A stretch of DNA of 64,000 bases from Flavobacterium sp. RSP15 (lineage in GTDB: Bacteria > Bacteroidota > Bacteroidia > Flavobacteriales > Flavobacteriaceae). The stretch covers positions 62,001-126,000 of the forward strand of contig NZ_RYDL01000001.1 in assembly GCF_003968755.1 (NCBI RefSeq), read 5' to 3'. A program made the translations under genes and the position numbers. The notes under the pieces were generated by a model, which had not been told where the DNA came from, ran no database searches, and was given only the letters and a program-made list of their open reading frames with translations. Of this stretch, positions 14,892 through 29,182 are shown one piece after another; position 1 is the stretch's first letter, and each line of letters opens with the position of its first letter.

Positions 14892-15004
14892 TGTTTTCTC
14901 TTTAGTATTTAGTTCTATTTGTGTTCAATTCTATGAAAATTTATATTCAAAATTGAAGTATTATAAAAGCAAAGCAGCTATTGTAATGCAAAGAATCAGA
15001 TCGT

Positions 15005-15697
15005 TTATTTTATGTTTTTTTTATAATACCGCAGCAAGCCTTCTGCAGAATGTCCCAATCTCCGCTTGAGATGAATAATTGTAAAATGGTATTGCAAGCG
15101 ATAAACCCCATTTTTTTGATATTTTCTGGCCGAGGTGATTACGTATTTTGGAATTACAGTAAAATGTTTTTTATCATATAGTTTTTTTATGATCTCATTG
15201 TCTTCATAAATAGTAAATTGTTCATCATATCCGTCAATTTCTGTAAAGAGCTTTTTGGTCACGAATAAAGATTGGTCACCACCGCGGCATGAACTGAAAT
15301 TGAAACGGGTAAACCATTGCGAAACTAATAATACTGGGTGGGCAAAGTCAAATTTCATACGGAAGCAACCTGCTTTATTTTCTTTTCGAATTTGTGCTAT
15401 TATATCTAAATCGAAATTTTCAGGAGGAAAACTATCACAATGTAAAAAATAAAAGAGGCTTCCCGTGGCTATTTTTGCACCTGCATTCAATTGTTTTGCC
15501 CGACCTTTTTCGGTATTAAATAAAACGATATTCGGGTATTTTTTAACCTTATTTTGAGAACCATCCGTACTACCGCCGTCAACGATAATGATTTCATAGG
15601 GTATTGTTTTGGAAATGCTGGTGTAAAGATGTTCTAAAAATCGATCTATAGCATTGACTTCATTGAAAATGGGTATTATGATCGAAATCTTATTCAT
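15005..15697 (-). CDS. TIGR04283-type glycosyltransferase (arsenosugar-locus family)
   Basis: A 230-aa GT2 enzyme: MNKISIIIPIFNE at the start, DGGSTDGS (Asp at ~40), GRAKQLNAGA (residues ~67-76), FLHCDSFPP (the DxD-like acid) and CRGGDQSLFV. This set, especially GRA.Q.NAGA and L.aD..pP, is characteristic of the family annotated as selenodomain-associated transferase 2 or TIGR04283, which occurs with ArsM/ArsS in arsenosugar loci. The partner family TIGR04282 lies three genes upstream on the same strand. Its stop is 113 bases from the lipoprotein and its start overlaps the DUF547 gene by 8 bases. The biochemical activity is not established. Confidence 0.8.
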   Translation of the reverse strand: MNKISIIIPIFNEVNAIDRFLEHLYTSISKTIPYEIIIVDGGSTDGSQNKVKKYPNIVLFNTEKGRAKQLNAGAKIATGSLFYFLHCDSFPPENFDLDIIAQIRKENKAGCFRMKFDFAHPVLLVSQWFTRFNFSSCRGGDQSLFVTKKLFTEIDGYDEQFTIYEDNEIIKKLYDKKHFTVIPKYVITSARKYQKNGVYRLQYHFTIIHLKRRLGHSAEGLLRYYKKNIK

Positions 15698-16493
15698 TCA
15701 GGGTCCAATTGTATTCTTTGAAACTAATTTTTGCTTTCGGGTGTATCTTAACAGTACTGTACTGACTAATAAAATCAATTATGGACCCTTTTTTCTTGAA
15801 ATCTCCTGAAAACCAATCGAATATTTTAGAAATTACAAGTTTGTCTTTTGTTATCGTATTTTTGGTATTATCTGCCATAAAATTTCTTGCGGCATCAGTT
15901 AATTGCTTGTCTAATGTGGCCGATTTATAAGCTTCATTTGATAAATTAGGACATGAAAACGATGCACAATTGATGGCAAAGTGAATACGCGGCTCATTCA
16001 TTTTACGTAAAATTTCGTGTTCAATTTCTTCCAGACTGTATTTTTTTGCTCCTAATGTAATAAACTTTTTACTCCAAGGATTGTTGATGTCTTTGATACT
16101 TATTAGCGGATAATTATCTAAAATTAATTTTACTGTAAAGGCGTTGTACGCATTAATCCAATATGCGAAGACAGCATTTTTTGGCCAGGATTTTGTAGGG
16201 ACATTTTTACCTAATTGATCTAAATACGATTCTAATTCGACAGCATCTTTTTGGAAACCTTTATAGTCGACACTTCCTTTATTAGAAACATGTTTTTGTA
16301 ATAGAGCATTCCATTTAGCATGATTTATTATTGTTTGAACGGTTGCTTCAGTATTGTTACCATAAGCTAAATCTGGGATTTCTTTGGTCGATTTGGCACA
16401 AGAAATCAAAGGAAGTATTAAAAGTATTAAAAGGCATTTTTTAGTCCTATTTAGTATCGCTTTTTGTTTATTTTCGTGAATCTTCGATTTCAT
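15690..16493 (-). CDS. DUF547 domain lipoprotein
   Basis: A 267-aa protein with a hydrophobic N-terminus ending LPLISC (Cys32), a lipoprotein signal after a basic, unusually long n-region. The body matches DUF547: WNALLQKHVSNKGSVDYKGF, then YWINAYNAFTVKLILDNYP and IHFAINCASFSCPNLSNEAY. The conserved Cys and His in these segments recall transglutaminase-like papain folds, though activity is unproven. DUF547 genes are frequent companions of TIGR04282/TIGR04283 genes. It overlaps the TIGR04283 gene by eight bases. Confidence 0.82.
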   Translation of the reverse strand: MKSKIHENKQKAILNRTKKCLLILLILPLISCAKSTKEIPDLAYGNNTEATVQTIINHAKWNALLQKHVSNKGSVDYKGFQKDAVELESYLDQLGKNVPTKSWPKNAVFAYWINAYNAFTVKLILDNYPLISIKDINNPWSKKFITLGAKKYSLEEIEHEILRKMNEPRIHFAINCASFSCPNLSNEAYKSATLDKQLTDAARNFMADNTKNTITKDKLVISKIFDWFSGDFKKKGSIIDFISQYSTVKIHPKAKISFKEYNWTLNE

Positions 16494-16552
16494 TTTATAC
16501 TAATTTAAAATTGTTTACCAAATAGTCGGAGTTTATGACTAAACCTGACAAG

Positions 16553-17425
16553 TTATTTTTTAAAAGGATACAATTCTTGTTGCAGGAATGAAGCCGGAAA
16601 TTGGTTTTCATCGTTAAAACCAAGTTCAATATCTCTGCCATCCGCAGGAATATAATTAGTTTTGAAAAGATAATCCCAAAGGCTTAATGAAATTCCGAAA
16701 TTTACTCCGTATTTGTTTGGCATTTTTTTACTGTGATGCCAAATGTGCATTTTTGGATTGTTGAAAATATATTTTAAGTAACCGTAATCCCAACCCAAAT
16801 TAGCATGGTTCAAATGTCCAATCGCAATAGAGACAAAATGAACTATGAACACATCCTTAAGATTAAAACCACCAATTAAAATAATTGGGATGTAAAGAAT
16901 CGTTTTATAAATGATGGGTTCTATCCAGTTGTACCGAAAATGTGCCGCAAACCCCATCTCCTTTACAGAATGATGTGTTTTATGTATTTTCCATAAAAAA
17001 GGGACAATGTGCAATAAACGGTGTGTATTCCATTGAATAAAATCAGCAATCAAAAAGAATAGTACTAAGGAGATTGGTTTTGGTAATTCTGAAATGGAAT
17101 ACAGCTTGATCGATGTTAGTTGTAAACCAAAAATAGCTGCAAAATCATTTAAAGCCTGCTCCGTTATATTAGATAAAGCAATAAGAAGAACCAGATTTAG
17201 CAGAATAAAATTGAAGTACAAATAGAATAAATCCAACCAGAAATCCTTTCTAAAAATGGGTTGCTTTTTTCGCCAAGGAAAAACAATTTCTAAAAGCCAA
17301 ACGACCAAAGAAATGACTAATAATCCGTAAAAATAATTATTCCAATTGGGAAAAATAATTTCATTTTTTAAGTAATTGAAATAACCTCTGTAAGAATTTA
17401 AAATAATATCGATATACTTATCCAT
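16553..17425 (-). CDS. Sterol desaturase / fatty acid hydroxylase family protein
   Basis: A 290-aa membrane-bound di-iron enzyme with three of the hallmark histidine clusters: HRLLH, HKTHH and HIWHH, spaced across two hydrophobic hairpins. The end of the protein carries LGWDYGYLKYIFNNPKMHIW, as in bacterial desaturase-like proteins. It probably hydroxylates or desaturates a lipid or a lipid-linked product at the inner membrane. It starts eight bases inside the TIGR04282 gene's end, so the two are coupled. A lipid-modifying enzyme inside a glycosyltransferase locus hints at a glycolipid product. Confidence 0.82.
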   Translation of the reverse strand: MDKYIDIILNSYRGYFNYLKNEIIFPNWNNYFYGLLVISLVVWLLEIVFPWRKKQPIFRKDFWLDLFYLYFNFILLNLVLLIALSNITEQALNDFAAIFGLQLTSIKLYSISELPKPISLVLFFLIADFIQWNTHRLLHIVPFLWKIHKTHHSVKEMGFAAHFRYNWIEPIIYKTILYIPIILIGGFNLKDVFIVHFVSIAIGHLNHANLGWDYGYLKYIFNNPKMHIWHHSKKMPNKYGVNFGISLSLWDYLFKTNYIPADGRDIELGFNDENQFPASFLQQELYPFKK

Positions 17426-18035
17426 TATTTAAGTTGCTTTTTAAGGTTTTATAATAACTGCTTTTTTCTAAATCTTCAAAGGTATCACTATCATTTAACG
17501 TTTCTGTAAATTCCATTTTGTAATTTTCTAAATCTTTCATAGTATCCGATAAAACTGCAGCTGTTCCCCAGTTTTTGTTTTTAAAAAGAGAAGGAATCAC
17601 TTTTTTTAACCCTAAAAGGTAATAACCACCATCTTCTGCAGGACCAATCACATCAACATTATACTTTAATTTAGAGAAAGCTTCGTTGATGTGAGAGTCT
17701 TGTAAATCGAACAGGTCACTCCCAATTATGATGCAATTCTGGTATCCCAATTCAAATAATTGCTGAAAAGCATCTTGCATGCGAACTCCCACATCAGCTC
17801 CGGATTGAAGTCTTTCTTTATATGAAAAACCAGCCCATAAGTCATTATAATCAATTGTTTTATCGTAAAAAACAAATTTATCGTAATCTAAACTTTGGGT
17901 GACTTTCATCGTGTGAAGGAGTAGATCCTTATATGTTTTTAATGCTTTTTCATCACCAATAGTTTTGGCTAATCGAGTTTTTACTTTTCCTAATTCCAGA
18001 TTCCGGGTAAAAATCAGTAATGCGTTATTTTTCAT
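17418..18035 (-). CDS. TIGR04282-type glycosyltransferase (arsenosugar-locus family)
   Basis: A 205-aa GT-A fold protein of the family annotated TIGR04282 or selenodomain-associated transferase 1. Key segments: LLIFTRNLELGKVKTRLAKTIG at the start (the P/LGKVKTRLA box), GADVGVRMQDAF, IIGSDLFDL (the metal-binding Asp) and PAEDGGYYLLGL near 135-146. These enzymes resemble nucleotidyltransferases such as CofC. It overlaps the rhodanese gene by 11 bases upstream and the desaturase by eight bases downstream. Confidence 0.85.
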   Translation of the reverse strand: MKNNALLIFTRNLELGKVKTRLAKTIGDEKALKTYKDLLLHTMKVTQSLDYDKFVFYDKTIDYNDLWAGFSYKERLQSGADVGVRMQDAFQQLFELGYQNCIIIGSDLFDLQDSHINEAFSKLKYNVDVIGPAEDGGYYLLGLKKVIPSLFKNKNWGTAAVLSDTMKDLENYKMEFTETLNDSDTFEDLEKSSYYKTLKSNLNNG

Positions 18036-18534
18036 ATACTTTTATCCCTTTTTTTAGATAGATGCTCCATTCTTTATTGTAAGTATGGACTTCGTTTGTT
18101 TCTGTTTTTTTGTTATCTACTATTTTTTTATCGTAGTTTTTCCATTCAACGATACCACCATATAAATTGAAAACATTCTTGTATCCTAATTTTAATAATT
18201 TGTCTCCAATGATTTCACTTCGCACACCAATAGAGCAGTAGACTACTATAAGTGCATTTTTATCTTTTATAATTGTTGTCACTTTTTTACCGTCAAACTG
18301 ATTAAAACCAACCGCTATGGAATTTTCAATATGACTCACGTTGAATTCTTTTGGTTCTCGGGCATCAAGAAAAACAATATTGGTTTTTGATTTTATTTCC
18401 GTCACTTTGATATAAGGAACGGATCCTTTGTTCCATTGTTTCAGTACTTGTGGAATCGAGTTTTGCGCAAACACGAATGTTGAAAAAAAGAAACAGCTTA
18501 GGTATACAAAGATTTTCAGTATCATTTTATGCAA
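18025..18534 (-). CDS. Exported rhodanese-like protein
   Basis: A 169-aa protein with a signal peptide (ILKIFVYLSCFFFSTFVFAQ, cut after FAQ or VFA near residue 23) and one rhodanese domain. The active-site cysteine lies in VVYCSIGVRS, followed by LLKLGYKNVFNLYGGI, the usual C-terminal half. It would act in the periplasm on sulfur or thiol substrates; the donor and acceptor are unknown. It is the first gene of the long minus-strand run, overlapping TIGR04282 by 11 bases. A second start Met lies at codon 4. Confidence 0.82.
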   Translation of the reverse strand: MHKMILKIFVYLSCFFFSTFVFAQNSIPQVLKQWNKGSVPYIKVTEIKSKTNIVFLDAREPKEFNVSHIENSIAVGFNQFDGKKVTTIIKDKNALIVVYCSIGVRSEIIGDKLLKLGYKNVFNLYGGIVEWKNYDKKIVDNKKTETNEVHTYNKEWSIYLKKGIKVYEK

Positions 18535-18581
18535 TTATCCGTATTAGACGCAACATAGTTTTTTCCTGACACGCAGATTGA

Positions 18582-18612
18582 CAAATATATAATTAAACAT
18601 ATTGGGAAACGG
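18582..18612 (-). promoter_or_regulatory. Possible promoter of the rhodanese-led run
   Basis: A minus-strand TATATTTG at 18589-18582 matches the Bacteroidota -7 consensus TAnnTTTG. The expected -33 TTTG is only partly present (GTTTC near 18607-18610). It lies about 50 bases before the rhodanese start. Confidence 0.3.
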
Positions 18613-18672
18613 GAGACCGTTTTATTGTCCGTGATGATTTGTAATAATTATTTTGTTAAGGACGAAGCGGTC

Positions 18673-18845
18673 TTTATGGAGTACAGATTTTAAGTAAATA
18701 TATTCTGTTTTTAAGAGGATTAAGATTTTAAGTAAAATTGACCTATTTTAAAGTATATTAGATTTTTAGTAAAACAATCCTCTTTTATGGAGTAAAAATT
18801 TCAGTTAAAAATTCCCTGTTTTTAAACAGTAAAATATATATTTAC
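18673..18845. repeat. Degenerate ~37-bp tandem repeat, four units
   Basis: Units begin near 18685 (AGATTTTAAGTAAA), 18723 (AGATTTTAAGTAAA), 18760 (AGATTTTTAGTAAA) and about 18795 (AAATTTCAGTTAAA), with steps of 38, 37 and ~35 bases. A larger element, TTTATGGAGTA, occurs at 18673 and again at 18784, 111 bases apart, which equals three units. The sequence is very A/T-rich and encodes no protein. Confidence 0.6.
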
Positions 18846-18908
18846 AAAAGGGGGTAAGAATGGGGGTAATAAAAATGATAAAAGATGATAAAAGATTAAA
18901 GGTATAAA

Positions 18909-18940
18909 AAAGAAAAAACCCCTATTTTACAGGGGTTTAA
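18909..18940 (-). terminator. Terminator after tRNA-Arg
   Basis: Stem AACCCCT / AGGGGTT around ATTTTAC. On the minus strand the hairpin is followed by a TTTTTTCTTTTTT-like tail, and it lies 34 bases beyond the 3' end of the tRNA. Confidence 0.75.
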
Positions 18941-18973
18941 GTATCTTCGAAAGCTGGCTACTTTCATATTTCG

Positions 18974-19047
18974 TGACCTTGACTGGATTCAAACCAGTAA
19001 CCTCTTGAGCCGTAATCAAGTGCGCTATTCAGTTGCGCCACAAGGCC
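18974..19047 (-). tRNA. tRNA-Arg (anticodon ACG)
   Basis: A 74-base cloverleaf on the minus strand. Acceptor stem GGCCTTG pairs with CAAGGTC (one G-U pair), followed by discriminator A. D arm GCGC-AACTGAATA-GCGC, anticodon stem CTTGA / TCAAG with loop TTACGGC, so the anticodon is ACG (Arg, CGN codons). T arm ACTGG-TTTGAAT-CCAGT. No CCA is encoded, so it must be added after transcription. A promoter and terminator frame it as a single-gene unit. Confidence 0.92.
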
Positions 19048-19082
19048 ATTTGCAAACCGTTATAATAACTTCATTGCGGGTG

Positions 19083-19113
19083 CAAATATAAGTATAAATG
19101 TGTAATTTGCAAG
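19083..19113 (-). promoter_or_regulatory. Promoter of tRNA-Arg
   Basis: On the minus strand: -33 box CTTG at 19113-19110 (one mismatch to TTTG), 19 bases, then a perfect -7 box TATATTTG at 19090-19083. Transcription would start near 19076, about 30 bases before the mature tRNA. Confidence 0.55.
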
Positions 19114-19140
19114 TCTATAATTATAAAAAAACAAAAAAAC

Positions 19141-19653
19141 ATGCCATTAAAAAATTATATACGTGATATTCAGGGATTTCCTAAAGAAGGAATTTTGTTT
19201 AAAGACATAACTCCACTGTTAATCGATCCCGAAGCGAGGAATAAATGCCTTGAAATACTGGTTTTGTCCTTGAAAGGCAAAAAAATTGATAAGGTAATAG
19301 GAGTGGAAAGTCGTGGATTTCTCTTTGGAATGTTGATCGCACAGGAATTAAATGTAGGTTTTATTCCGGTTCGAAAGCCAAACAAGTTGCCTTACGAAAC
19401 TATTTCAGCAACATATGATTTAGAATATGGAACCGATACTTTAGAAATCCATATTGATGCGATTAAAAAAGGAGACCGAATCCTAATTCACGATGATGTA
19501 TTAGCCACCGGAGGAACAGCCAAAGCAGTTTGCGAATTAGTGGAGCAATTGGGCGGTGAAATTGTACAATGCAATTTCTTGATGGAATTAGCTTTCTTGA
19601 ATGGAAGGACAAAAATCAAAGGAAATGAAATTTTTGCCGCAATTACGTATTAA
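19141..19653 (+). CDS. apt: Adenine phosphoribosyltransferase
   Basis: Purine salvage enzyme that makes AMP from adenine and PRPP in the cytoplasm. It has the type I phosphoribosyltransferase PRPP loop ILIHDDVLATGGTAKA near 120-135 and the N-terminal APRT motifs IRDIQGFPKEGILFKDITPLL and VIGVESRGFLFG. It has 170 aa, the usual length. It starts with ATG after an A-rich leader. It is a single gene; its last four bases overlap the convergent 46-aa gene. Confidence 0.95.
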   Translation: MPLKNYIRDIQGFPKEGILFKDITPLLIDPEARNKCLEILVLSLKGKKIDKVIGVESRGFLFGMLIAQELNVGFIPVRKPNKLPYETISATYDLEYGTDTLEIHIDAIKKGDRILIHDDVLATGGTAKAVCELVEQLGGEIVQCNFLMELAFLNGRTKIKGNEIFAAITY

Positions 19654-19790
19654 TCCAATGCACGTGTGGTTACGTAATATCTAAAACCAATAATAGCCAT
19701 TTGCCATTTCTTGGCTTTAGCCAAATCCAATCGCTGTTTGGTGAAACTAGGTAAAATAACTTTGTTAATTTGGGCTAGGATTTTATACAT
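19650..19790 (-). CDS. Small basic conserved-looking protein, 46 aa
   Basis: A short frame with convincing codon use: it starts MYKILAQINKVILPSFTK, is basic in the first half (KQRLDLAKAKKWQ) and ends in a hydrophobic and basic stretch (MAIIGFRYYVTTRALD). It converges with apt, overlapping four bases at the ends. I believe similar 45-aa proteins occur beside apt in flavobacteria, but this is from memory. One amphipathic or membrane-edge helix is likely. The function is unknown. A strong terminator-like hairpin lies just upstream of its start. Confidence 0.55.
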   Translation of the reverse strand: MYKILAQINKVILPSFTKQRLDLAKAKKWQMAIIGFRYYVTTRALD

Positions 19791-19816
19791 ATCATTTTGT
19801 TTGGTGTAAAGATATA

Positions 19817-19848
19817 AAAAAAGACGATCTTGATCTGGACCGTCTTTC
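19817..19848 (-). terminator. Hairpin between the M56 gene and the 46-aa gene
   Basis: Stem AAAGACG / CGTCTTT with a 14-base loop and an A tract that reads as a T tract on the minus strand. It is positioned to end the blaI-M56 transcript. Confidence 0.65.
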
Positions 19849-19869
19849 TGGGTTTTTAAATGTTTAATT

Positions 19870-21543
19870 CTATTTTGATTTTTTATTGGAGGATTTTAAT
19901 AAATCTACATTTCCTTTAGTGATAATTTCAATTGCACCATTTCCCCCACCATTACCATATTTCTCTTCAGCATTTATCTTTTTTAAAACAGTCATACTTT
20001 CAATTAAATTTTGATCTGTTTTGTTTAAATCATCCAGAGTGGTATTTGTTCTTTTACCATTGATGAATATAATTGGGTTTTTCAATTCTCTTTTCAAGTT
20101 TTTGGTTGTTATCTCAATAGCTCCATTTTTTCCTTCATCTCCATATTTTTCTTCGGCAGCTGATCCTTTTAAAACAGTCATAGTTTTAATTGAATTTTGA
20201 TCCATTTTGTTTATAACTTCCATTACGAGGTTTGTTTTTTTGCCATTGATAAAAATAATTGGTTTTTCAGGACTATCATTTTTCAATATTTCTTTTGTTT
20301 TTATAGTCAGTATAGACGCTCTTCTTTTACCTGTGTCAGTAACTACATCTATTTTTTTAGCTTTTTTCTTTAGATCAGCATTGAAAAAACCAATATTGAC
20401 ATTATTCAATTTATCTTTCTTATAAAAAAATACAAATCGATTAATAGGAGTGTTTCCTTCCTGTGTATATTCTTCTTTATTCCCTTTGTGATCATCATAA
20501 GAAGCACTAATATTTACAATTTCTCCTAACGAATTCCTTTTGATATTTGAGAATATTAAAGTAACATTATGTGTTTTTTGAACAATTTCACAATTTTCTC
20601 TAATTTCAATATCTGTAGTTGATTTGTCAGTATTAAATTTTGACATTTCGATAATTTCATCTATCTTAATTTTTTTTTCCTGAGCTATCACATTTACTTG
20701 GAAAAGCATCACAAATGCAACTAAAGCAGGAATAACGACTGCGTACTTCCAGGAATTCGATTTTTTTGATTGATTTTTGTTTAACATAACGATTCGTTTT
20801 TTGATTAATGATTGATAAAAATGATTAGTAATGGCAACACAATTCTCCTGTGTTGTTATTTTTAAAAGTGTGAACTGATACGCTTTTTTGTCGGATATCT
20901 TTTTCGTGGCTTCGCTGTCAGCAATGAATTCCAAGTTTTGGATAATTGCTTTTTTATAAAACCAAATGAATGGATTAAACCAAAACACAATACAAAACAA
21001 TCTTGAAATTAATACATCAACAGTATGATTTTGCTCACTATGAACTTTTTCGTGTTCCAAAATATTTTCTAATTCGGAACTGCTGTACAAAGACGAATTG
21101 TAAACGATAGTATTAAAATAAGAGAAAGGAGCGAGGTTGTCTTTTAAGTCTATAAATTTAAAATTCGCTTGACGTTTTATGGTTTTTCCTTTTACTATTT
21201 TTTGTAAACTGTAAAATTCAAAACCAAATTTAGTGAAAAGGCATAATGTGCCAATGCAGTACAGCACTGCTAATGCCAGAAAAATATATTCTTGCGTGTG
21301 GTCTTCATCAATAATTGTACTTTTGGGCAATGATGACCAATCATAATTTATAGGAGTAGGTTCTACCCATATTGTTTTAGTAAAAACAACTAACGGCAAA
21401 AGAATGGAAGTGAATAATCCCAATAACAAAAACCAACGATTGCTTGTGAAAAAAGTTTCTTTTCGCAACATAAAATGATACGCCAAATAAAACAAGGCAA
21501 TTAATCCGCTGGATTTGATGAGATAAATATAAAATACTTCCAT
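19870..21543 (-). CDS. M56 (BlaR1/MecR1-type) membrane metallopeptidase with duplicated plug-like repeats
   Basis: A 557-aa membrane sensor protease. Helices lie at ~1-25, 35-57 and 85-107, then a cytoplasmic zinc protease with HEKVH at 164-168, and a fourth helix at ~268-290. In BlaR1-like systems the protease cleaves the BlaI-type repressor. The outer part is not a beta-lactam domain but carries two 55-residue repeats (about 427-481 and 489-543), each with PIIFINGK, then MTVLK, EEKYG and NGAIEI. This resembles the TonB-receptor plug segment (carboxypeptidase-like and plug domains). It follows its BlaI gene by 23 bases. The ligand is unknown; cell-envelope stress is a guess. Confidence 0.88.
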   Translation of the reverse strand: MEVFYIYLIKSSGLIALFYLAYHFMLRKETFFTSNRWFLLLGLFTSILLPLVVFTKTIWVEPTPINYDWSSLPKSTIIDEDHTQEYIFLALAVLYCIGTLCLFTKFGFEFYSLQKIVKGKTIKRQANFKFIDLKDNLAPFSYFNTIVYNSSLYSSSELENILEHEKVHSEQNHTVDVLISRLFCIVFWFNPFIWFYKKAIIQNLEFIADSEATKKISDKKAYQFTLLKITTQENCVAITNHFYQSLIKKRIVMLNKNQSKKSNSWKYAVVIPALVAFVMLFQVNVIAQEKKIKIDEIIEMSKFNTDKSTTDIEIRENCEIVQKTHNVTLIFSNIKRNSLGEIVNISASYDDHKGNKEEYTQEGNTPINRFVFFYKKDKLNNVNIGFFNADLKKKAKKIDVVTDTGKRRASILTIKTKEILKNDSPEKPIIFINGKKTNLVMEVINKMDQNSIKTMTVLKGSAAEEKYGDEGKNGAIEITTKNLKRELKNPIIFINGKRTNTTLDDLNKTDQNLIESMTVLKKINAEEKYGNGGGNGAIEIITKGNVDLLKSSNKKSK

Positions 21544-21566
21544 AATTGATATTGTTAATCTAAAGT

Positions 21567-21935
21567 TTATATTTCCTCTTTATGACTTTCAATCATAGCC
21601 AAAATTTCCCGTAATTCAGCTGCAGATATTTTCTCTTCTTTGGCAAAATGCGATACCATATTTTTATATGAGCTGTTGAAATAATTATCAATAGCAGTAT
21701 TCATGAATCGTTTTCTATAATCTTCTAAACTTATAATAGGAAAGTATTGGTGTGTGTTTCCAAAGGCATTGTGCGACACAAATCCTTTTTCTTCCAGATT
21801 GCGCACAATGGTTGAAAGTGTGTTATAATGGGGTTGATCTTCTGTGATTTCTGCAAGGACTTCTTTTACGAATGCTTTTTTGAGCTTCCATAAAATGTGC
21901 ATGATTTCCTCTTCTTTGTTGGTTAACTTTTGCAT
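21567..21935 (-). CDS. BlaI/MecI/CopY-family transcriptional repressor
   Basis: A 122-aa winged-helix repressor: N-terminal helix-turn-helix (EEEIMHILWKLKKAFVKEVL) and the typical TLSTIVRNLEEKGFV recognition part at ~40-55, then a dimerisation tail. Family proteins bind TACAnnTGTA-type operators as dimers and are cleaved by the partner M56 protease, which is the next gene. An operator-like dyad with an exact TACAAATGTA core stands just upstream, so the gene is probably autoregulated. Confidence 0.92.
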   Translation of the reverse strand: MQKLTNKEEEIMHILWKLKKAFVKEVLAEITEDQPHYNTLSTIVRNLEEKGFVSHNAFGNTHQYFPIISLEDYRKRFMNTAIDNYFNSSYKNMVSHFAKEEKISAAELREILAMIESHKEEI

Positions 21936-21951
21936 AATTTTTTATTTAAAC

Positions 21952-21982
21952 CAAATTTACAACTATTTTTTTAGTTATCAAA
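21952..21982 (-). promoter_or_regulatory. Promoter of the blaI-M56 operon
   Basis: On the minus strand: -33 box TTTG at 21982-21979, 19 bases, and -7 box TAAATTTG at 21959-21952, both exact matches to the Bacteroidota consensus TTTG-N19-TAnnTTTG. Transcription would start near 21945, ten bases before the blaI ATG. The first operator-like dyad lies between the two boxes. Confidence 0.7.
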
Positions 21983-22016
21983 CTACAAATGTAGTTTTTT
22001 AACTATTTTTATAGTT
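21961..22016. promoter_or_regulatory. Three BlaI-type operator dyads at 20-bp steps
   Basis: Three 16-base inverted repeats of form AACTA-N6-TAGTT: 21961-21976 (AACTATTTTTTTAGTT), 21981-21996 (AACTACAAATGTAGTT) and 22001-22016 (AACTATTTTTATAGTT). The middle one contains TACAAATGTA, the known BlaI/MecI core. Their start-to-start spacing is exactly 20 bases, two helical turns. The first sits between the -33 and -7 boxes and the second overlaps -33, so bound repressor would block RNA polymerase. Confidence 0.75.
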
Positions 22017-22059
22017 TTGACGTGTTTTTGCAGTTTTTTGGAAATTAATTATCCTTTTA

Positions 22060-22146
22060 ATCAAAAATGTTATCACCACAAGGAGACTGCGTGAGGGGTA
22101 GAAGCTAGCTACCGAAGTAGCGCGTATAACCCGACGCTATAAAGAA
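22060..22146 (+). ncRNA. Candidate structured RNA
   Basis: A region between the BlaI operators and a strong terminator, with nested stems. The outer stem pairs GCGT (22089-22092) with ACGC (22134-22137). The next stem pairs GGGT (22096-22099) with ACCC (22129-22132). An inner hairpin GCTAC-CGAA-GTAGC lies at 22108-22121. I recall GTGAGGG.TAGAAGC...CCCGACGC-like elements in flavobacterial intergenic regions, which may be an Rfam family such as Flavo-1, but this is not verified. It could instead be a 3' element of the convergent MFS gene. Confidence 0.4.
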
Positions 22147-22189
22147 AAGGGGCTAATAACGATTTTGTTGATAAGCCCCTTTTTTTTAT
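22147..22189 (+). terminator. Strong terminator after the candidate RNA
   Basis: Stem AAGGGGCTAATAAC / GTTGATAAGCCCCTT with an eight-T tail on the plus strand; the minus strand also gives a T-rich tail, so it can serve the MFS gene as well. Confidence 0.75.
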
Positions 22190-22218
22190 AGGGTCACGCC
22201 CAAAGAATGATAATGGAA

Positions 22219-23436
22219 TTAATTGTGTTCTTTTTGAACGAGTTTTTGCAGCCAGATACAACCTACCACAGCTAAAATACCTAAACTTCCCATGACAAAC
22301 CAGTTAGCTTGGTAGCCAAAAGCGGCTATGATTTCCAGTCCAGTTTTAGAACTCGCAATGTGTGCTAAGCTGAAGCTCATGGTAAACAAAGCCATGTAGC
22401 GGCCTTCATGCCCTTTTGGAGCCCGGCTCAACGCAAATGAATTGGAGAAAGGGAAGATGAACATTTCGCCAAAAGTGATAAAAAGAATACTAACAATTAG
22501 TATTCCAGCCCACATATTGATGAGTAAAACATAAAAACTCAATGACATTAGCAATGCGCCCCAAAGAATAATTTTGAGTATACTGATGCCTTTTCTTTGA
22601 GTGAAACTTACAATTGGCATTTCCAGAAAGAAAATTAACAGTCCGTTTAAAGACAATAAAAGTCCACTTTGAAACTCGGTTAATCCAAATTTTTCATTAT
22701 GATATAAGGGTAAAGTGGTGAAAAGTTGAAAGAAAAGCATGGCTGTTATGAAACAAACAAAAAGGAAGATCCAGAATATTCTGTCTTTGAAAACAGAGGC
22801 TGGCATCTCAGTTTCACTATTGGCGGAGGCTAAATCGGCAGGTTTTTTGCGTTCTTTCACTAATAAAGTAAAAATTAATATAGATACGATACATGAACTT
22901 CCATCCACCCAGAATAATCCGCTGTACCCTAAATTCATAATAATTAAACCTCCTAAAGCCGGTCCTGCAGTGAAGCCTAAATTTACCGCTAATCGTACTA
23001 AAGTCAGTGCTCTGGTGCGATTCTCAGGTTTAGCATAAGTCGCCAAGGAGACAAACATGGCGGGACGAAACATATCAGCAACGGTCATTATGACAAACAT
23101 TCCAATGCACAATCCCCAGAAGGTCCGAATGTATTGTACAAAAAACAAAAGGATTCCGCTGGTGAATAAACTGAAAACCATGATTTTATAAAAGCCTATT
23201 TTATCGGATAATTTGCCACCAAGCCAAGATCCCAGCATAGAACCAAAACCAAAAGCAACCATAATCCATCCCACTTGTGCGTAGGATAAATTCAAATCTT
23301 CTTTTAAATACTTAGATAAAAAAGGCAAAACCATCGTACCGGCGCGATTTATAAAAGTGACGAGCGTTAGAATCCAAATTTCTCTGGTAAAGCCTTTGAA
23401 ATTATTAATGTAGCGTTGAAAAGCAGTTTGAAACAT
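22219..23436 (-). CDS. Major facilitator superfamily transporter
   Basis: A multi-drug/sugar-type MFS protein of 405 aa with twelve helices. The first half has GSMLGSWLGGKLSDKIGF, the loop 2-3 motif A (G-x-L-a-D-r-x-G-r), and the helix 4-5 region has RFRPAMF-like spacing (DMFRPAMFVS). The second half is FGLTEFQSGLLLSLNGLLI, then a hydrophobic run. The open frame begins at 23532, but the extra 32 residues are basic and unlike a start; Met at 23436 (MFQTAFQRYI) is preferred. The substrate is unknown; similar proteins are annotated as multidrug efflux. Confidence 0.85.
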   Translation of the reverse strand: MFQTAFQRYINNFKGFTREIWILTLVTFINRAGTMVLPFLSKYLKEDLNLSYAQVGWIMVAFGFGSMLGSWLGGKLSDKIGFYKIMVFSLFTSGILLFFVQYIRTFWGLCIGMFVIMTVADMFRPAMFVSLATYAKPENRTRALTLVRLAVNLGFTAGPALGGLIIMNLGYSGLFWVDGSSCIVSILIFTLLVKERKKPADLASANSETEMPASVFKDRIFWIFLFVCFITAMLFFQLFTTLPLYHNEKFGLTEFQSGLLLSLNGLLIFFLEMPIVSFTQRKGISILKIILWGALLMSLSFYVLLINMWAGILIVSILFITFGEMFIFPFSNSFALSRAPKGHEGRYMALFTMSFSLAHIASSKTGLEIIAAFGYQANWFVMGSLGILAVVGCIWLQKLVQKEHN

Positions 23437-23483
23437 GTATTTGTTATATTTTGCAAAGGTAGAAAACTTTGTACCGATGCGTC

Positions 23484-23515
23484 TTTGTGTCCTAGTAACT
23501 TTTAAACTATTTTTG
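23484..23515 (+). promoter_or_regulatory. Promoter of the DUF1684 gene run
   Basis: -33 box TTTG at 23484-23487, 20 bases, -7 box TATTTTTG at 23508-23515 (exact TAnnTTTG). Transcription would start near 23521, about ten bases before ATG 23531. This supports 23531 as the start of the DUF1684 gene. Confidence 0.65.
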
Positions 23516-23530
23516 CATAAAAATAAGAAC

Positions 23531-24133
23531 ATGAGAACGCTATTTACTTTATTTCTTTTGATTCAATTGAATTTAGGCTTTGGCCAATATAAATTTGACG
23601 TTTCGGCTGTAGCCAAATTTCAAAAGGAATTAAATTCAGAATATGCCGATGCAAAGACAAGTCCGTTGACTCCGAAAGATTTAGCGGAATTCAAAACACT
23701 TGATTTTTATCCTGCAAACGAAACTTTTTATGTGGTCGCTAAGTTAGTAAGAACAAAAAAAGAGAAGCCTTTTGAAATGAAAACGTCAACGGACAGGAAA
23801 CCATTGTATGTAAAATATGGGGAACTTTCTTTTACAATTGACGGTCGGGATTTGAAACTGAATGTGTACAAGAATATGGAGCTCTCAAAAAAAGAGGAAT
23901 ATAAAGACTATTTATTTTTACCGTTTTCAGATCTGACTGCAGGAAACGAAAGTTACATTGGCGGGAAATACATTGATTTGAAAATCCCAAAAGGAGATGC
24001 TATTGTGATTGACTTTAACACGTCATACAATCCGTATTGCGCGTATAATTTTACATATTCCTGTCCAATAGTACCATTGGAAAATGATTTGAATATCGAG
24101 ATAAAAGCGGGAGTTAAAAAATTTCACAACTAA
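23531..24133 (+). CDS. Exported DUF1684 protein
   Basis: A 200-aa protein with a signal peptide (MRTLFTLFLLIQLNLGFG, cleaved near GFGQ). The body is a DUF1684 domain: VAKFQKELNSEYADAKTSPL at its start, LDFYPANETFYVVAKLVRT, and a conserved end DFNTSYNPYCAYNFTYSCP with two cysteines. DUF1684 proteins are widespread in Bacteroidota and lack a proven function. It starts at 23531, not at the earlier in-frame ATG 23435, because the promoter lies between them and the signal peptide starts here. Its stop shares bases with the TatD start (TAATG). Confidence 0.85.
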   Translation: MRTLFTLFLLIQLNLGFGQYKFDVSAVAKFQKELNSEYADAKTSPLTPKDLAEFKTLDFYPANETFYVVAKLVRTKKEKPFEMKTSTDRKPLYVKYGELSFTIDGRDLKLNVYKNMELSKKEEYKDYLFLPFSDLTAGNESYIGGKYIDLKIPKGDAIVIDFNTSYNPYCAYNFTYSCPIVPLENDLNIEIKAGVKKFHN

Positions 24134-24798
24134 TGGATTTCTTTAATCTGCATACACATAAAGATACGAATCAACCCAATGTGTTGGAATTAGTGAATCA
24201 ATATCCACAGGAATTTGATGCAACAATTCCGTATTATTCCATCGGGATTCATCCGTGGTTTATCATTGAAGAACGAATAGAAGCTGATTTGGCGATAATC
24301 GAAAGTAAATTACAAGAGGGGAATTGTCTCGCTGTAGGTGAATGTGGACTGGACAAACGCATCGAAGTTTCAATGGAATTGCAACAGTTGGTTTTCGAAA
24401 AGCAATTGCTTTTGGCGCAGCACTATCAAAAACCAGTGGTAATACACTGTGTCGGTGCTTTTCAGGAAGTGATTGCAATTACGAAAAAATTGAATATTTC
24501 AGTTCCAATGCTGATTCATGGGTTTTCCAAAAATGCCCAAGTCGCTAAACAATTAGTGAACAATGGATTTTATATTTCGTTTGGGAAATATTTATTGCTA
24601 AATCAGGACCTAGAAGCTGTTTTTAAAAGCGTTCCTGATAATCGATTTTTTTTGGAAACAGATACGGTGGATGAAGGGATTGAAGCAGTTTATGAATTGG
24701 CAGCAAAATACAGAGGAATTTCGCTGGAAGAAATACAGGAACTTGTGAATAGTAATTATAATGAAGTTTTTGATTTCAGAATTTTTCAAAAACATTAA
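24133..24798 (+). CDS. TatD-family metal-dependent hydrolase
   Basis: A 221-aa TIM-barrel hydrolase, a DNase-like enzyme of the TatD group. The metal site begins with HTH (His7, His9), then GIHPWF, GECGLDKR (Glu near 75) and VIHCVGAFQEV (His), then LIHGFSKN and ETDTVDEGI (Asp near 177). It is slightly shorter than E. coli TatD (about 260 aa), typical of Bacteroidota. It directly overlaps the DUF1684 stop and is followed by tcdA 17 bases later. Likely DNA repair or RNA processing in the cytoplasm. Confidence 0.85.
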   Translation: MDFFNLHTHKDTNQPNVLELVNQYPQEFDATIPYYSIGIHPWFIIEERIEADLAIIESKLQEGNCLAVGECGLDKRIEVSMELQQLVFEKQLLLAQHYQKPVVIHCVGAFQEVIAITKKLNISVPMLIHGFSKNAQVAKQLVNNGFYISFGKYLLLNQDLEAVFKSVPDNRFFLETDTVDEGIEAVYELAAKYRGISLEEIQELVNSNYNEVFDFRIFQKH

Positions 24799-24815
24799 AC
24801 TTTAAACAAAAAACA

Positions 24816-25529
24816 ATGGCAGAATGGACAGAGAGAGCCGAACTTTTATTCAAAAAAGAAGGTTTAGATAATTTAAAAAAGGCAAATATATTGGTTGTAG
24901 GATTGGGTGGTGTTGGTTCTTTTGCGGCCGAATTTTTGGTAAGAGCAGGAGTGGGAACGATGACTATTGTTGATGGTGACGTAGTTGATATTACCAATAT
25001 AAACCGACAATTGCCTGCTTTACATTCAACTGTAGGACAACCAAAAATTACTGTTGTCGGGGATCGATTGATGGACATTAATCCAGAATTAAAATTGACG
25101 CGTGTACAGGAATTTCTTTCGCCAGAGCGTGCTTTCGAAATTGTATCGGAGGAATTTGATTATGTTTTGGATTGCATTGACAGTGTGACTCCAAAGCTGA
25201 ATTTGATTATTGGAGCCAAACGAAAAAGAGTAAAAATCATCAGTAGTATGGGCGCAGGTGGGAAAATGGAAGCTTCAAAAGTGAAAGTGACTGATATTAC
25301 CAATACCGTGAATTGTTATTTTGCCAAAACCATTCGAAGACGATTGAAAGAATTTAAAATTGATAAACTGAAAGTGGTTTTTTCTTCGGAAATTCAAGAT
25401 GAAACGAGTTTAAAAATGACAGATGGATCTAATTTCAAAAAATCATTTTATGGAACCAATAGTTACATGCCTGGATTATTTGGTTTGTATGCTGCAGAAA
25501 CCGTGATTCGTTATTTACTTAAGAAATAA
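24816..25529 (+). CDS. tcdA: tRNA threonylcarbamoyladenosine dehydratase
   Basis: An E1-like ThiF-fold protein of 237 aa that converts t6A37 in tRNA to the cyclic form ct6A using ATP. The ATP-binding VVGLGGVGSFAAEFLVRAG is at 26-44, then IDITNINRQLPA-like strand (VDITNINRQLPALHSTVG), and DCIDSVTPK near 120. The late SSMGAGGKME segment also fits. The nomenclature tcdA (CsdL) fits Bacteroidota homologues of this size. It may instead be another E1-like protein, but the whole pattern fits TcdA. Confidence 0.85.
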   Translation: MAEWTERAELLFKKEGLDNLKKANILVVGLGGVGSFAAEFLVRAGVGTMTIVDGDVVDITNINRQLPALHSTVGQPKITVVGDRLMDINPELKLTRVQEFLSPERAFEIVSEEFDYVLDCIDSVTPKLNLIIGAKRKRVKIISSMGAGGKMEASKVKVTDITNTVNCYFAKTIRRRLKEFKIDKLKVVFSSEIQDETSLKMTDGSNFKKSFYGTNSYMPGLFGLYAAETVIRYLLKK

Positions 25530-25611
25530 TGGTTAGAATTCAGTTTCTTAATGTTCCGTTCTAAAAAGTTAAGAAGTCTTAAAATCTATAAAGTCTAATA
25601 ATTTAACAAAA

Positions 25612-26286
25612 ATGATACAAACCGTAATTTTTGACATGGATGGTGTAATTGTCGATACTGAACCAGTACACCGTTATGCTTATTTCAAACAATTCGCTGA
25701 ACTAAATATTCCTGTTACGGAAGATATGTACACTTCATTTACAGGAAATTCTACTCGGAATATATTTCAGAAATTGAAAGAGATTTTTGAAATTGAACAT
25801 GAAGTAGAAGATTTGATTCAAAGAAAACGAACTATTTTTAATGATGCGTTTGATAGTAAAGCAGATCTAGAATTACTACAAGGCGTCGAACATCTTATTA
25901 AAGAATTACACCAAAACGGAATACAATTGATTTTGGCTTCTTCGGCATCCAAAGTGACTATTGAACGCGTGTTTAGCCGGTTTAAGTTACATGATTATTT
26001 TACACATGTGGTAAGTGGTGAAGATTTCCCTAAATCAAAACCACATCCTGCTATTTTTGAATATGCGGCAAGTTTATCAGTTGCACCAAAAGCAAATTGT
26101 ATCGTTATTGAGGACAGTACAAATGGAATAAAAGCGGCTAAAGCTGCTGGGATTTTTTGTGTGGGCTACAACAGTATTCATTCTGAAGCACAAGATTTAT
26201 CGGAAGCAGATGTAATGATTAATCATTTTAACGAATTGGATTTTGAGGCAGTTAGAAATATTCAATCTAAATTAAGGAATAATTAA
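25612..26286 (+). CDS. HAD hydrolase, beta-phosphoglucomutase-like
   Basis: A 224-aa phosphatase/phosphomutase of HAD subfamily I. Motif I FDMDGVIVDTEP (Asp8, Asp10), cap domain residues ~20-90, motif II LASSASK near 107, motif III Lys in PKSKPHPAIF near 140, motif IV EDSTNGIKAAKAAG near 166. The pattern matches beta-phosphoglucomutase-like and sugar-phosphate phosphatases; the substrate is unknown. It stands 82 bases after tcdA in a plus-strand run. Confidence 0.88.
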   Translation: MIQTVIFDMDGVIVDTEPVHRYAYFKQFAELNIPVTEDMYTSFTGNSTRNIFQKLKEIFEIEHEVEDLIQRKRTIFNDAFDSKADLELLQGVEHLIKELHQNGIQLILASSASKVTIERVFSRFKLHDYFTHVVSGEDFPKSKPHPAIFEYAASLSVAPKANCIVIEDSTNGIKAAKAAGIFCVGYNSIHSEAQDLSEADVMINHFNELDFEAVRNIQSKLRNN

Positions 26287-26338
26287 CAGTACAAAGGCAT
26301 TGAATTTGTAAATTTGGAAAACATTTAAAAATTACAAT

Positions 26339-27184
26339 ATGAAAAAAATAATCATTGCACTGGCTTTATTCATGGCCGGTTTCAGCGCTGAGGCTCAGTT
26401 AAAAACACCTCAATCAAGTCCGAAAATGACGTTTATGCAAACAGTTGGTTTGACTGATGTAGAAGTTAACTATTCAAGACCAAGTGCCAGAGGAAGATCC
26501 GTTTTTGGAAATTTAATTCCTTTTGGAAAAGTATGGAGAACTGGAGCTAATGAAAATACAACTGTTTCCTTTAGCGATGATGTGATTATTGATGGTAAAA
26601 CATTGAAAAAAGGAAAATATTCATTGTATACTATTCCGAAAATAGAAAGCTGGGAGATACTATTTTATAAAACTACTGATAACTGGGGTAATCCAGAAGA
26701 GTGGAAAGAAGAAAATGTAGCGCTTAGAGCTACTGTTACCCCTGAGACAGTGAATAAAAGTGTGGAAACATTTACTATTGGAATTAGTGGTTTAGACAAT
26801 AATTTTGCTTTTTTAGAAATCTATTGGGAGAACTCCTATGCTGCTTTAAAATTTGAAGTGCCAACACAACAAAAAACAACGGCTAACATCGAGAAAGCAT
26901 TAGCTGGACCAGCTAGTGCAGATTATTTTTCTGCTGCCCAATTTTTATTCCAATCGAATGGCGACAATGCAAAAGCATTGATTTATGTAAACAAAGCGTT
27001 AGATATGTCTAAAGACAAACCGTTCTGGTACAACAGATTGAAGTCATTAATTCAAGGTAAACTGGGAGACAAAAAAGGAGCAATTGAAACGGCTAAAGCA
27101 TCACTTGCAGCAGCAGAAATTGCTAAAAACCAAGATTACGTGAAAATGAATAAAGACAGTATTACAGAGTGGAGTAAAAACTAA
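26339..27184 (+). CDS. Exported DUF2911 protein
   Basis: A 281-aa protein with a signal peptide (LALFMAGFSAEAQ). The DUF2911 domain is seen at ~25-165: VEVNYSRPSARGRSVFG, VWRTGANENTT and DGKTLKKGKYSLYTIP, the last being a family signature. The C-terminal ~100 residues are alpha-helical and TPR-like (FWYNRLKSLIQGKLGDKKGA), as in Bacteroidota members. Function is unknown. A -7-like TAAATTTG box (26309-26316) lies just upstream, so it may have its own promoter. A terminator follows. Confidence 0.88.
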   Translation: MKKIIIALALFMAGFSAEAQLKTPQSSPKMTFMQTVGLTDVEVNYSRPSARGRSVFGNLIPFGKVWRTGANENTTVSFSDDVIIDGKTLKKGKYSLYTIPKIESWEILFYKTTDNWGNPEEWKEENVALRATVTPETVNKSVETFTIGISGLDNNFAFLEIYWENSYAALKFEVPTQQKTTANIEKALAGPASADYFSAAQFLFQSNGDNAKALIYVNKALDMSKDKPFWYNRLKSLIQGKLGDKKGAIETAKASLAAAEIAKNQDYVKMNKDSITEWSKN

Positions 27185-27208
27185 TTACTCTAACGTTTTT
27201 ATATAAGA

Positions 27209-27246
27209 AGATCTCGTCTCCATTTAGAGACGGGATTTTTTTTTGA
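27209..27246 (+). terminator. Terminator of the DUF2911 gene
   Basis: Stem CTCGTCTC / GAGACGGG around CATTTA, followed by a nine-T tail. Confidence 0.8.
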
Positions 27247-27389
27247 AATTTTGGACTGTGTAATTTATTGGACTGAATAATTTATTAGATGTTTGCGTAT
27301 ATAGTATCCATGGGATTATTATTACTTCGCCAGTTCGCTCTTGCTCGTTTCTGCGGAAGAAGAGATTTTTATATAAGAACTTCTGAAGT

Positions 27390-27456
27390 AAAAAAAATAA
27401 CCGCAGATTCACAGATTTTTATATTGATAATCCGTGAATCTGCGGTTATTTTTTTA
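27390..27456. terminator. Long-stem hairpin at the end of the symporter gene
   Basis: A 19-base stem (AATAACCGCAGATTCAC and its complement) with a 21-base loop, with A/T tails on each side. It is placed directly after the symporter stop on the minus strand. The CCGCAGATTCACAG sequence is a common type of dispersed flavobacterial intergenic hairpin (recollection, not searched). Confidence 0.7.
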
Positions 27457-27457
27457 T

Positions 27458-29182
27458 TTAGGCTGTTATCGCTCTCTGTTTTCTAAAAATGGTCCATTGC
27501 AACAATAATGAAATTACAATTGTAAGCATTGCACCAATGAAATTCAGCCACAAATAACCCAGTTTTTCTTCTCCGCTCGGGAAAATATAAATGGCGTAAT
27601 AGTAGATGATAAAAATAGTAATCTGACTTACTACAGCGCTATAAAAAATGGCTTTAGATTGTACTTTATGGATGTAAAAACCAACTAAGAAAATTCCAAG
27701 GACTGTTCCATAAAATATGGATCCAATGATGTTTACCAGTTGAATTAAATTTTCAAAAAGCGTTCCAATACAAGCAAATAGGATGGCTATAACTCCCCAC
27801 AGTAAGGTAAAGAATTTTGTAGCATACAGGTAGTGCCGTTCTGATTTTTCTTCTTTTAGATTGCGTTTGTAAATATCAATTGCGGTGGTAGAGGCCAGTG
27901 CATTCAATCCCGAAGCGGTAGAGGACATAGCAGCCGAAATAATTACGGCCAGTAACAAACCAATAAGCCCTTTGGGTAAATAGTTGAGAATAAAGTGAAA
28001 AAACACATAATCTTTATCATTGGTCTCGCTATTACTATCAGCTTTGAGAATTATTTCTTTGGCTCGATCTCTTAAATCTTTTTCTTTATTGGATAAAGTC
28101 ACTAATTCTTTCCTAAGGGTTGGATTGTCATAATCCTGATTGAGCTGGTCGATGTACAAAAGATTAATTACTTTTTTGTCTTCGGATAAATCGTCTAATT
28201 TTTTCTCCAAAGCATTGTATTCGCTTTTGTAAGCTGATTTTTCAATCATGGCTTTATTATTTGGATTAAAATTTAACGGAACAGGATTGAATTGGAAAAA
28301 GACAAAAACCATAACTCCGGTCAGTAAAATAAAGAACTGCATAGGTACTTTTAAAAGCCCGTTCATGATTAGTCCCATCTGGCTTTCTCGAACGGATCGT
28401 CCGGATAAATAACGTCCTACCTGCGATTGATCGGTACCAAAATAGGCTAATGCCAAGAAAAAACCTCCTGTTATTCCGCTCCAAAAGGTATATTTTTCCT
28501 CTGGATCTAAAGAGAAATTAACAATATCCATTTTATCATTTGCCCCAGCAATATGCAACGCACTGGAGAAAGTCATATCATTAGGTAAATAATGCAAAAT
28601 CAGAAAAAAAGTGATTAGCATTCCGGACATAATCACAAACATTTGCTGTTTTTGAGTTACATTCACTGCTTTGGTTCCACCCGAAAAAGTATAAATGATA
28701 ACTAATACACCAATAATAATATTCATGTAGGTAAGATTCCAACCCAATAAAGCGGACAAAATAATTGCCGGAGCGTATATGGTCAATCCGGTTCCTAAAC
28801 CTCTTTGGAACAAGAAAAGGATGGCAGCTAGGGAACGGGTCTTCAAATCAAATCTTTTTTCAAGGTATTCATAAGCTGTATACACTTTGTATTTGTGGTA
28901 TAAAGGGATAAAGGTCACACAGATTACCACCATTGCAATTGGCAGTCCAAAATAGAATTGCACAAAACCCATACCGTCATGATAGGCTTGCCCGGGAGTA
29001 GAAAGAAACGTAATTGCACTGGCTTGTGTGGCCATAACAGAAAGTCCTACAACATGCCAAGGTGTTTCATTACTCCCTAAAATAAAGTCTTCTACATTTT
29101 TACTGCCCTTGGTTTTCCAAGCCCCATAAATTACAATAAACAATAAAGTTACTATCAGTATAATCCAATCAAATAATTGCAT
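27458..29182 (-). CDS. Sodium:solute symporter family protein
   Basis: A 574-aa transporter with about 13-14 helices of the SSS (LeuT-like) fold. Typical parts are GGRSxx-like GSNETPWHVVGLSVMATQASA near residue 38-58, and GTDQSQVGRYLS near residue 248-259. Between helices, residues ~290-375 form a hydrophilic insert rich in K, D, E, L (KLDDLSEDKKV, LRKELVTLSNKEKDLRDRA) that looks like a coiled coil. The solute cannot be told; the neighbouring PIG-L deacetylase suggests a sugar or amide product. It is transcribed after a 35-aa peptide gene, three bases before its start. Confidence 0.88.
   Translation of the reverse strand: MQLFDWIILIVTLLFIVIYGAWKTKGSKNVEDFILGSNETPWHVVGLSVMATQASAITFLSTPGQAYHDGMGFVQFYFGLPIAMVVICVTFIPLYHKYKVYTAYEYLEKRFDLKTRSLAAILFLFQRGLGTGLTIYAPAIILSALLGWNLTYMNIIIGVLVIIYTFSGGTKAVNVTQKQQMFVIMSGMLITFFLILHYLPNDMTFSSALHIAGANDKMDIVNFSLDPEEKYTFWSGITGGFFLALAYFGTDQSQVGRYLSGRSVRESQMGLIMNGLLKVPMQFFILLTGVMVFVFFQFNPVPLNFNPNNKAMIEKSAYKSEYNALEKKLDDLSEDKKVINLLYIDQLNQDYDNPTLRKELVTLSNKEKDLRDRAKEIILKADSNSETNDKDYVFFHFILNYLPKGLIGLLLAVIISAAMSSTASGLNALASTTAIDIYKRNLKEEKSERHYLYATKFFTLLWGVIAILFACIGTLFENLIQLVNIIGSIFYGTVLGIFLVGFYIHKVQSKAIFYSAVVSQITIFIIYYYAIYIFPSGEEKLGYLWLNFIGAMLTIVISLLLQWTIFRKQRAITA

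Follow-up and report, generated by a model that had tools for sequence, protein, structure and literature searches.

A triple dyad array with 20-bp steps at a Flavobacterium blaI promoter, and clade-specific dyad spacing in Flavobacteriaceae

Why should a single blaI promoter carry three copies of one dyad at equal distances, and is the distance itself maintained? The question is raised by an operon in the stretch of DNA analysed here (the window, 64 kb), in which a gene for a BlaI-family repressor is followed by one for an M56 membrane protein. The features concerned are these:

19870..21543, minus strand: gene for an M56 (BlaR1-type) metallopeptidase-like membrane protein, 557 aa (PF05569, 51.9 bits)
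21567..21935, minus strand: blaI-family repressor gene, 122 aa, clade A (PF03965, 109.1 bits)
21959-21952, minus strand: -7 box TAAATTTG of the blaI promoter, read from the sequence
21982-21979, minus strand: -33 box TTTG, read from the sequence, with a 19-base spacer to the -7 box
21961..21976, no strand assigned: dyad 1 (promoter-proximal), AACTATTTTTTTAGTT, exact match, within the -33/-7 spacer
21981..21996, no strand assigned: dyad 2 (middle), AACTACAAATGTAGTT, exact match, overlapping the -33 box by two bases
22001..22016, no strand assigned: dyad 3 (distal), AACTATTTTTATAGTT, exact match, upstream of the -33 box

The sequence confirms what an earlier note on this DNA had described, namely three exact AACTA-N6-TAGTT dyads at 20-base steps (starts 21961, 21981 and 22001) around a promoter of the Bacteroidota type, and the coordinates agree with its placing of dyad 1 in the spacer, dyad 2 over the -33 box and dyad 3 upstream. 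Position 21952, from which the note had counted the array, holds as the edge of the -7 box, but the dyads themselves begin at 21961. The exact core TACAAATGTA that had been assigned to dyad 2 sits at 21984-21993; dyad 2 is also the only one with a TACA-N2-TGTA core of the BlaI/MecI operator type, dyads 1 and 3 being without it. TTTG at -33 is part of the Bacteroidota promoter consensus, and with TAAATTTG and a spacer of 19 (about 19-20 expected) the layout is that of a Bacteroidota sigma-A promoter. For F. psychrophilum, the excerpted text of PMC9723704 gives the sigma-A -7 consensus as TAnnTTTG and has this element occupy -12 to -5. If the start of the -7 box is 12 bases from the transcription start, as that species suggests, blaI transcription would begin near 21947, twelve bases ahead of the coding sequence.

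The blaI product matches PF03965 over residues 4-116, the whole winged-helix and dimerisation region, far above the cut-off of 22.6 bits, and a phmmer comparison matches it to the MecI structures 1okr and 1sd6 at E about 1e-9. Judged by this match to MecI, the BlaI fold is clear. Its BlaI neighbours, among them that of F. xueshanense, are 95-97% identical and place the window in Flavobacterium. The protein has no cysteine and therefore lacks a Cys-X-Cys copper motif; its identity as a CopY/TcrY copper repressor was rejected for the lack of cysteine and for a score of 43.9 bits against a cut-off of 121.95. The M56 gene lies 24 bases downstream on the same strand, and its translation contains an HEKVH motif. 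Against blaR1_generic the M56 protein scores 33.8 bits, far under the cut-off of 400, and a Pfam search at E up to 0.001 found no penicillin-binding sensor domain, the only matches being M56 and a Plug domain below cut-off. The latter falls in the tail of the protein (PF07715, TonB plug, 20.9 bits), as does a SusC-signature-like match that is likewise below cut-off (TIGR04057, 41.6 bits). Two such SusC/RagA-signature/TonB-plug-like stretches, each sub-cut-off, can be seen in the tail, both with an IFINGK and a KYG..G.NGAIEI motif. No beta-lactamase or PBP2a gene adjoins the operon, the other ORFs of 15000-29000 being judged by eye only. The upstream neighbour is an MFS transporter gene in the same direction, ending about 200 bases before the array; between the two, at 22085-22138, lies an intergenic repeat of about 50 bases with three further copies in the genome (85-92% identity).

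How unusual is the array? A loose form of the motif is ordinary: with up to two mismatches the window has 65 sites against 57.8 expected, which is near chance. What is notable is the three exact, evenly stepped copies. Exact matches to AACTANNNNNNTAGTT in the 64-kb window are the three array dyads only, and the whole 3.39-Mb genome has five, the other two being singles within other ORFs and set aside as ordinary; no promoter-borne exact site was found elsewhere in this genome. At least two exact ACTA-N6-TAGT dyads were present in 45 of 92 real blaI upstream regions and in none of 18,400 dinucleotide shuffles, and the shuffled versions of these 92 regions carried 0.0072 exact dyads per region.

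The earlier note had named conservation among relatives as a check on the array. For the genus, a BlaI protein scan of genome contigs was used, and the best 78 of 561 confirmed stretches were taken as loci; all 78 are Flavobacterium or labelled close to it, and together they contain 106 blaI genes. A locus counted as an array locus if any exact dyad lay within 220 bases of blaI, and dyads in register were allowed at most 2 mismatches in 10. Among these best 78 of 561, 76 loci have an array (76 genes, one per locus), with three in-register dyads at 20 bp in 75 arrays and four in the remaining one. The steps between exact dyads were 20 (85 times) and 40 (4 times), with no other value. The promoter register is also kept: the start of the TAnnTTTG box lies 17 bases from the start of the proximal dyad in 73 of the 76 arrays, 37 in two and 16 in one. 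The counterpart of dyad 1, which served as the anchor, is in register in 76/76, the middle dyad is exact (0/8 mismatches) at -20 in 67/76, and a distal dyad within 2/8 mismatches stands at -40 in 74/76, with no more than 3/76 at each of the other offsets scanned; three of the 76 arrays have a fourth dyad at -60. The distal dyad has its inner half-site intact in 69 of these 76 arrays and its outer one in 27. The remaining letters vary, with 22 different linkers among 86 pairs and 33 cores among 166 exact dyads in the same best 78 of 561 loci, and the last dyad lies at varying distances from the start codon, whereas the step is constant. The core TACAAATGTA recurs in none of those 166 exact dyads and in none of 79 other clade A dyads, and it is unlikely to matter for the class.

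The 30 blaI genes without an array in these best 78 of 561 loci come mostly from loci that hold a second blaI. At least two blaI hits were seen in 28 of the 78 (within L008-L085). The second copy is found some 2 kb downstream, or follows the end of another gene, and has no array itself, an arrangement that tandem duplication of blaI-M56 cassettes behind a shared operator would produce. Another, GC-richer insert stands between promoter and blaI start in some relatives, L032, L042 and L070 among them.

A scan of the genus that made no use of the protein, with a dyad-pair pattern of free gap (0-30 bases) and a reversed pattern as control, found pairs in 106 of 150 genomes (98/124 of those of good quality) against 0 for the control; 44 of the 150 had no pair of exact dyads. 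Among the matches listed, the gap was 4 bases (step 20) at every place except one, G123:C2. All 30 pattern loci that were fetched lie directly upstream of a BlaI gene, and 29 have 20-bp steps; the one that differs, L113 at the G123 place, comes from a sister clade.

This exception leads to the family, where full-length PF03965 genes were gathered regardless of operators, 79 from 45 family genomes and 13 from 40 class genomes. Partial matches were dropped (8/87 rows in the family genomes, 7/22 in the class genomes), and two further class rows, from the window's own genome, were counted once. Clades were set by short recognition-helix motifs (A, HYNT..ST; B, PAYNT..STI; C, PA.TT.ATL), giving 29 A, 28 B, 24 C and 11 rows in none, and were checked against a tree with few columns. 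Upstream of in-family clade A genes, an in-step pair at 20 bp was present in 25 and absent in 4. Among clade B genes, which have the same AACTA/TAGTT half-sites, 23 show a pair at 18 bp and 2 lack one. No AACTA/TAGTT in-step pair was found before any of 23 in-family clade C genes; clade C promoters carry TCTA-N6-TAGA instead, 22 of 24 having two or three copies (at most one mismatch), with loose steps of 20 and 27-29. Clade A at 20 and clade B at 18 occur together in 14 of 36 genomes. In a fourth, small BlaI group (PAYTTVATI; L310, L315) the dyads are TACTA-N6-TAGTA at 20 bp.

In the tree of 110 proteins the in-family A sequences form one group of 37 rows and the in-family B sequences one of 27, each with support 100/98; in the B group 24 rows have step 18, one has 17 and two are without array. 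Among B-like genes a few (L161, L309, L318) likewise have step 17. Because class-level outgroups on both sides of the tree also have step 20, this step looks ancestral and step 18 derived once, as far as can be told from a tree that is built on few columns and leaves many forks open. Seven of 52 in-family clade A genes have no in-step pair within the last 230 bp, and near-array absence is partly explained by arrays that stand 0.6-2 kb further up, ahead of the preceding gene (G157 and G182 in A, G161 and G227 in B). With a loose pattern the family-wide position of the -7 box relative to the in-step pair is less uniform, the main offset being found in 26 of 45. The loose pair pattern, less strict than the one used for the genus, occurs in 88 of 120 family genomes against 21 for the reversed control, and in 33 of 148 phylum genomes against 28, both control figures being hand counts; the phylum count shows nothing alone, since it is hardly above its control.

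The step prediction, 20 for A and 18 for B, was noted before 42 further genera were searched. This sample comprised 42 genomes and 73 full-length genes, of which 6 fell in no clade, after 12 of 85 partial PF03965 rows had been dropped; for 8 of the 42 genomes a locus had stood in an earlier table before the prediction, and some others had appeared in an earlier pattern listing. All 20 clade A arrays stepped at 20 bp (3 genes had no array), and 17 of 18 clade B arrays stepped at 18 bp, the other at 17 (4 genes had none). Clade C had TCTA-N6-TAGA in 22 of 22. There was no crossover in these 42 genomes: neither an 18-bp A array nor a 20-bp B array occurred. Excluding the 8 partly seen genomes leaves 14/14 for A at 20 bp, and for B 13/14 at 18 with one at 17. 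A third clade B dyad, predicted 24-36 bp further on, was present in 12 of 17 new B arrays, and three exact dyads had been found in 10 of 23 earlier ones, so that a third dyad in clade B is common, not general. The refuting outcome named in the earlier note, a lack of conservation in relatives, is thus not what was seen: 20-base arrays persist in the genus and, within clade A, family-wide.

From the sites, their promoter register, their conservation and the association of step with clade, we read the array as a cooperative operator through which BlaI would repress its own blaI-M56 sensor operon, a reading to which we give a probability of about 0.8. For the family it is established that dimeric BlaI, bound to inverted repeats, represses the operon it belongs to, and that the M56 partner leads to BlaI inactivation (excerpts of PMC3305447 and PMC8457756). 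By analogy, dimers of the BlaI encoded downstream would bind each 16-bp dyad, and three dimers at 20 bp centre to centre, lying over the -33 box, the spacer and the upstream DNA, would keep RNA polymerase off. The fixed spacing, about equal to the footprint of a dimer, would let neighbouring dimers touch, and the proximal and middle sites, the strongest, would help to fill the weaker distal one. Repression would then be steep, and readily released once the M56 protein, presumably cleaving BlaI as BlaR1 and MecR1 do, inactivates the repressor. We infer the contact between dimers indirectly, because even degenerate distal sites, away from the promoter boxes, keep the exact register, and because the linker letters are free while the length is fixed and the steps are clade-specific. 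The geometric argument made for the array earlier, that 20-base spacing puts all dimers on one face of the DNA, stands as an approximation at 20 bp (about 1.9 helical turns of 10.5 bp, not two) but not for the 18 bp of clade B (about 1.7 turns); since clade B uses the same half-sites, one face is not a general rule, and helical phasing alone does not explain the steps.

Cooperativity cannot simply be assumed, because the two operators of CopY gave no significant rise in affinity according to the excerpted text of PMC7253601. This precedent favours a rather unlikely account, in which each dyad takes one dimer without contact, repression is additive, the step is set only by the need to fit two dyads to the -33/-7 spacer and the -33 box, and the distal dyad is spare. 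The proximal and middle dyads are indeed tied to promoter elements, and the distal dyad is the most degenerate, its outer half-site being intact in 27/76, against 69/76 for the inner, in the best 78 of 561 loci. However, that dyad lies off the promoter boxes and still holds exact register in 74 of the 76 arrays from these best 78 of 561, and clade B holds 18 bp with a different promoter register. A constant step could alternatively be left over from a 20-bp unit that was duplicated in tandem, selection having acted on the half-sites only; L029 has four dyads, three of them nearly identical units, the pattern expected after a recent duplication. Such an origin is quite improbable as an explanation of the spacing: most arrays contain unlike cores and linkers (22 linkers among 86 pairs), yet none of 89 exact steps departs from 20 or 40, both in the best 78 of 561 loci. 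Indels, which have accumulated between array and start codon, would be expected in such a remnant too.

The array is also a run of alternating half-sites, and the real unit might be the alternate palindrome TAGTT-N4-AACTA between dyads, filled by two dimers, not three. This would leave unpaired the weakest half-site, the outer distal one (27/76 in the best 78 of 561), and would also leave the proximal TAGTT unpaired, which is nevertheless conserved. The third dyad of clade B, when present, stands alone at 24-36 bp with both half-sites around N6, and the TCTA-N6-TAGA dyads of clade C occur at loose steps (20, 27-29), so that we regard the alternate unit as very improbable. Hardly any weight can be given to the dyads acting in RNA as attenuator or decoy hairpins or serving the neighbouring MFS gene, even though each could form a short hairpin and that gene ends only about 200 bases upstream, since their place upstream of the -7 box keeps them out of the blaI transcript, the MFS gene has the same direction and ends before the array, and Rfam gave no family at gathering score over 19500-24000.

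The two steps invite a further, more tentative idea, that the sister BlaIs A (20 bp) and B (18 bp) are told apart, at least partly, by the distance between dyads; we think it possible, though we lean against it. The dimer-dimer contact of each BlaI would then fit only its own step, and in genomes with both, two regulators would use geometry to read one set of letters. There may be other keys than spacing, because core positions 4 and 9 differ too, with A..T in 50 of 55 family B dyads against 4 of 46 family A dyads. Residues specific to A or B include position 36 of the recognition helix (His in A, Ala in B), and several more lie in the wing and the C-terminal part. The His36/Ala change was considered as the setter of core preference and rejected, as outgroups, compared by eye, break the pairing: PAYNT occurs with T..A cores (L163-L165) and PHSNT with A..T (L146). 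The outgroup BlaIs L146, L147 and L166 combine the B-like A..T core with 20-bp steps, and core and step are therefore separable.

In known systems, repeated operators are not new. The BlaI/BlaR1 (MecI/MecR1) systems of Bacillus licheniformis and Staphylococcus aureus resemble the window in having a repressor gene followed by an M56 gene, dyadic operators in the promoter and autorepression, as proposed here. The earlier view that BlaI operators in Firmicutes usually come as one or two dyads has to be qualified, since the excerpted text of PMC3305447 describes B. licheniformis BlaI as binding three operators, OP1-OP3; a triple is thus not unprecedented. In those species, however, the operators are spread over the beta-lactamase divergon, whereas in the window they stand in equal 20-bp steps at one promoter, with no adjacent beta-lactamase and an M56 protein that has no match to the penicillin-binding domain. 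BlaI_0696 and BlaI_1845 of Clostridium thermocellum, studied by DAP-seq, have half-sites GTCTAT/GACTAT, close to ACTA, and small regulons, with inverted repeats arranged in ordered pairs ahead of the operon of each; their authors call two inverted-repeat pairs a strict requirement. These are two pairs against the three of the window, and the excerpted text contains no analysis of clade-specific steps or held-out conservation (all PMC8457756). The BlaI relatives CopR/CopY of Enterococcus and Streptococcus often have two operators upstream of the operon, each a 16-base RNYKACANNTGTMRNY, at distances mostly of 24-39 bases (mode 26), looser than the step of the window (PMC7253601, as excerpted). 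Our searches of open-licence PMC papers turned up neither a triple array at strict 20-bp steps in Bacteroidota nor clade-specific BlaI operator steps, and full-text search of such papers found no study of BlaI-M56 operators in Bacteroidota.

BlaI-M56 pairs are common in Bacteroidota, and so regular an operator offers a ready motif for annotating their operons. The two clades also form a natural experiment, in which sister repressors use one half-site at two fixed spacings, often in one cell; the avoidance of cross-talk between paralogues, by base contacts or by geometry, is therefore directly testable.

Arrays are not confined to blaI genes. From the family and phylum pattern scans 58 array loci were fetched, 51 with a BlaI gene and 7 without; among the latter, two (L138, L167) look like chance hits inside ORFs and three (L148, L116, L135) precede other genes, a MacB/FtsX-type permease at L148 and an esterase at L116. 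At four more loci (L123, L125, L160, L162) the array stands before accessory genes that precede blaI in the operon. Such arrays hint at outputs of the circuit. The genome of the window itself has a second operon, of clade C, in which a lipoprotein-like gene, blaI and an M56 gene follow two TCTA-N6-TAGA dyads set 20 bp apart. This operon carries TCTACATTTGTAGA (L007 1030-1063), and in dyad 2 of the window A-type half-sites surround the clade C operator core (TACATTTGTA); by its letters, dyad 2 could possibly be recognised by the second BlaI of the genome as well.
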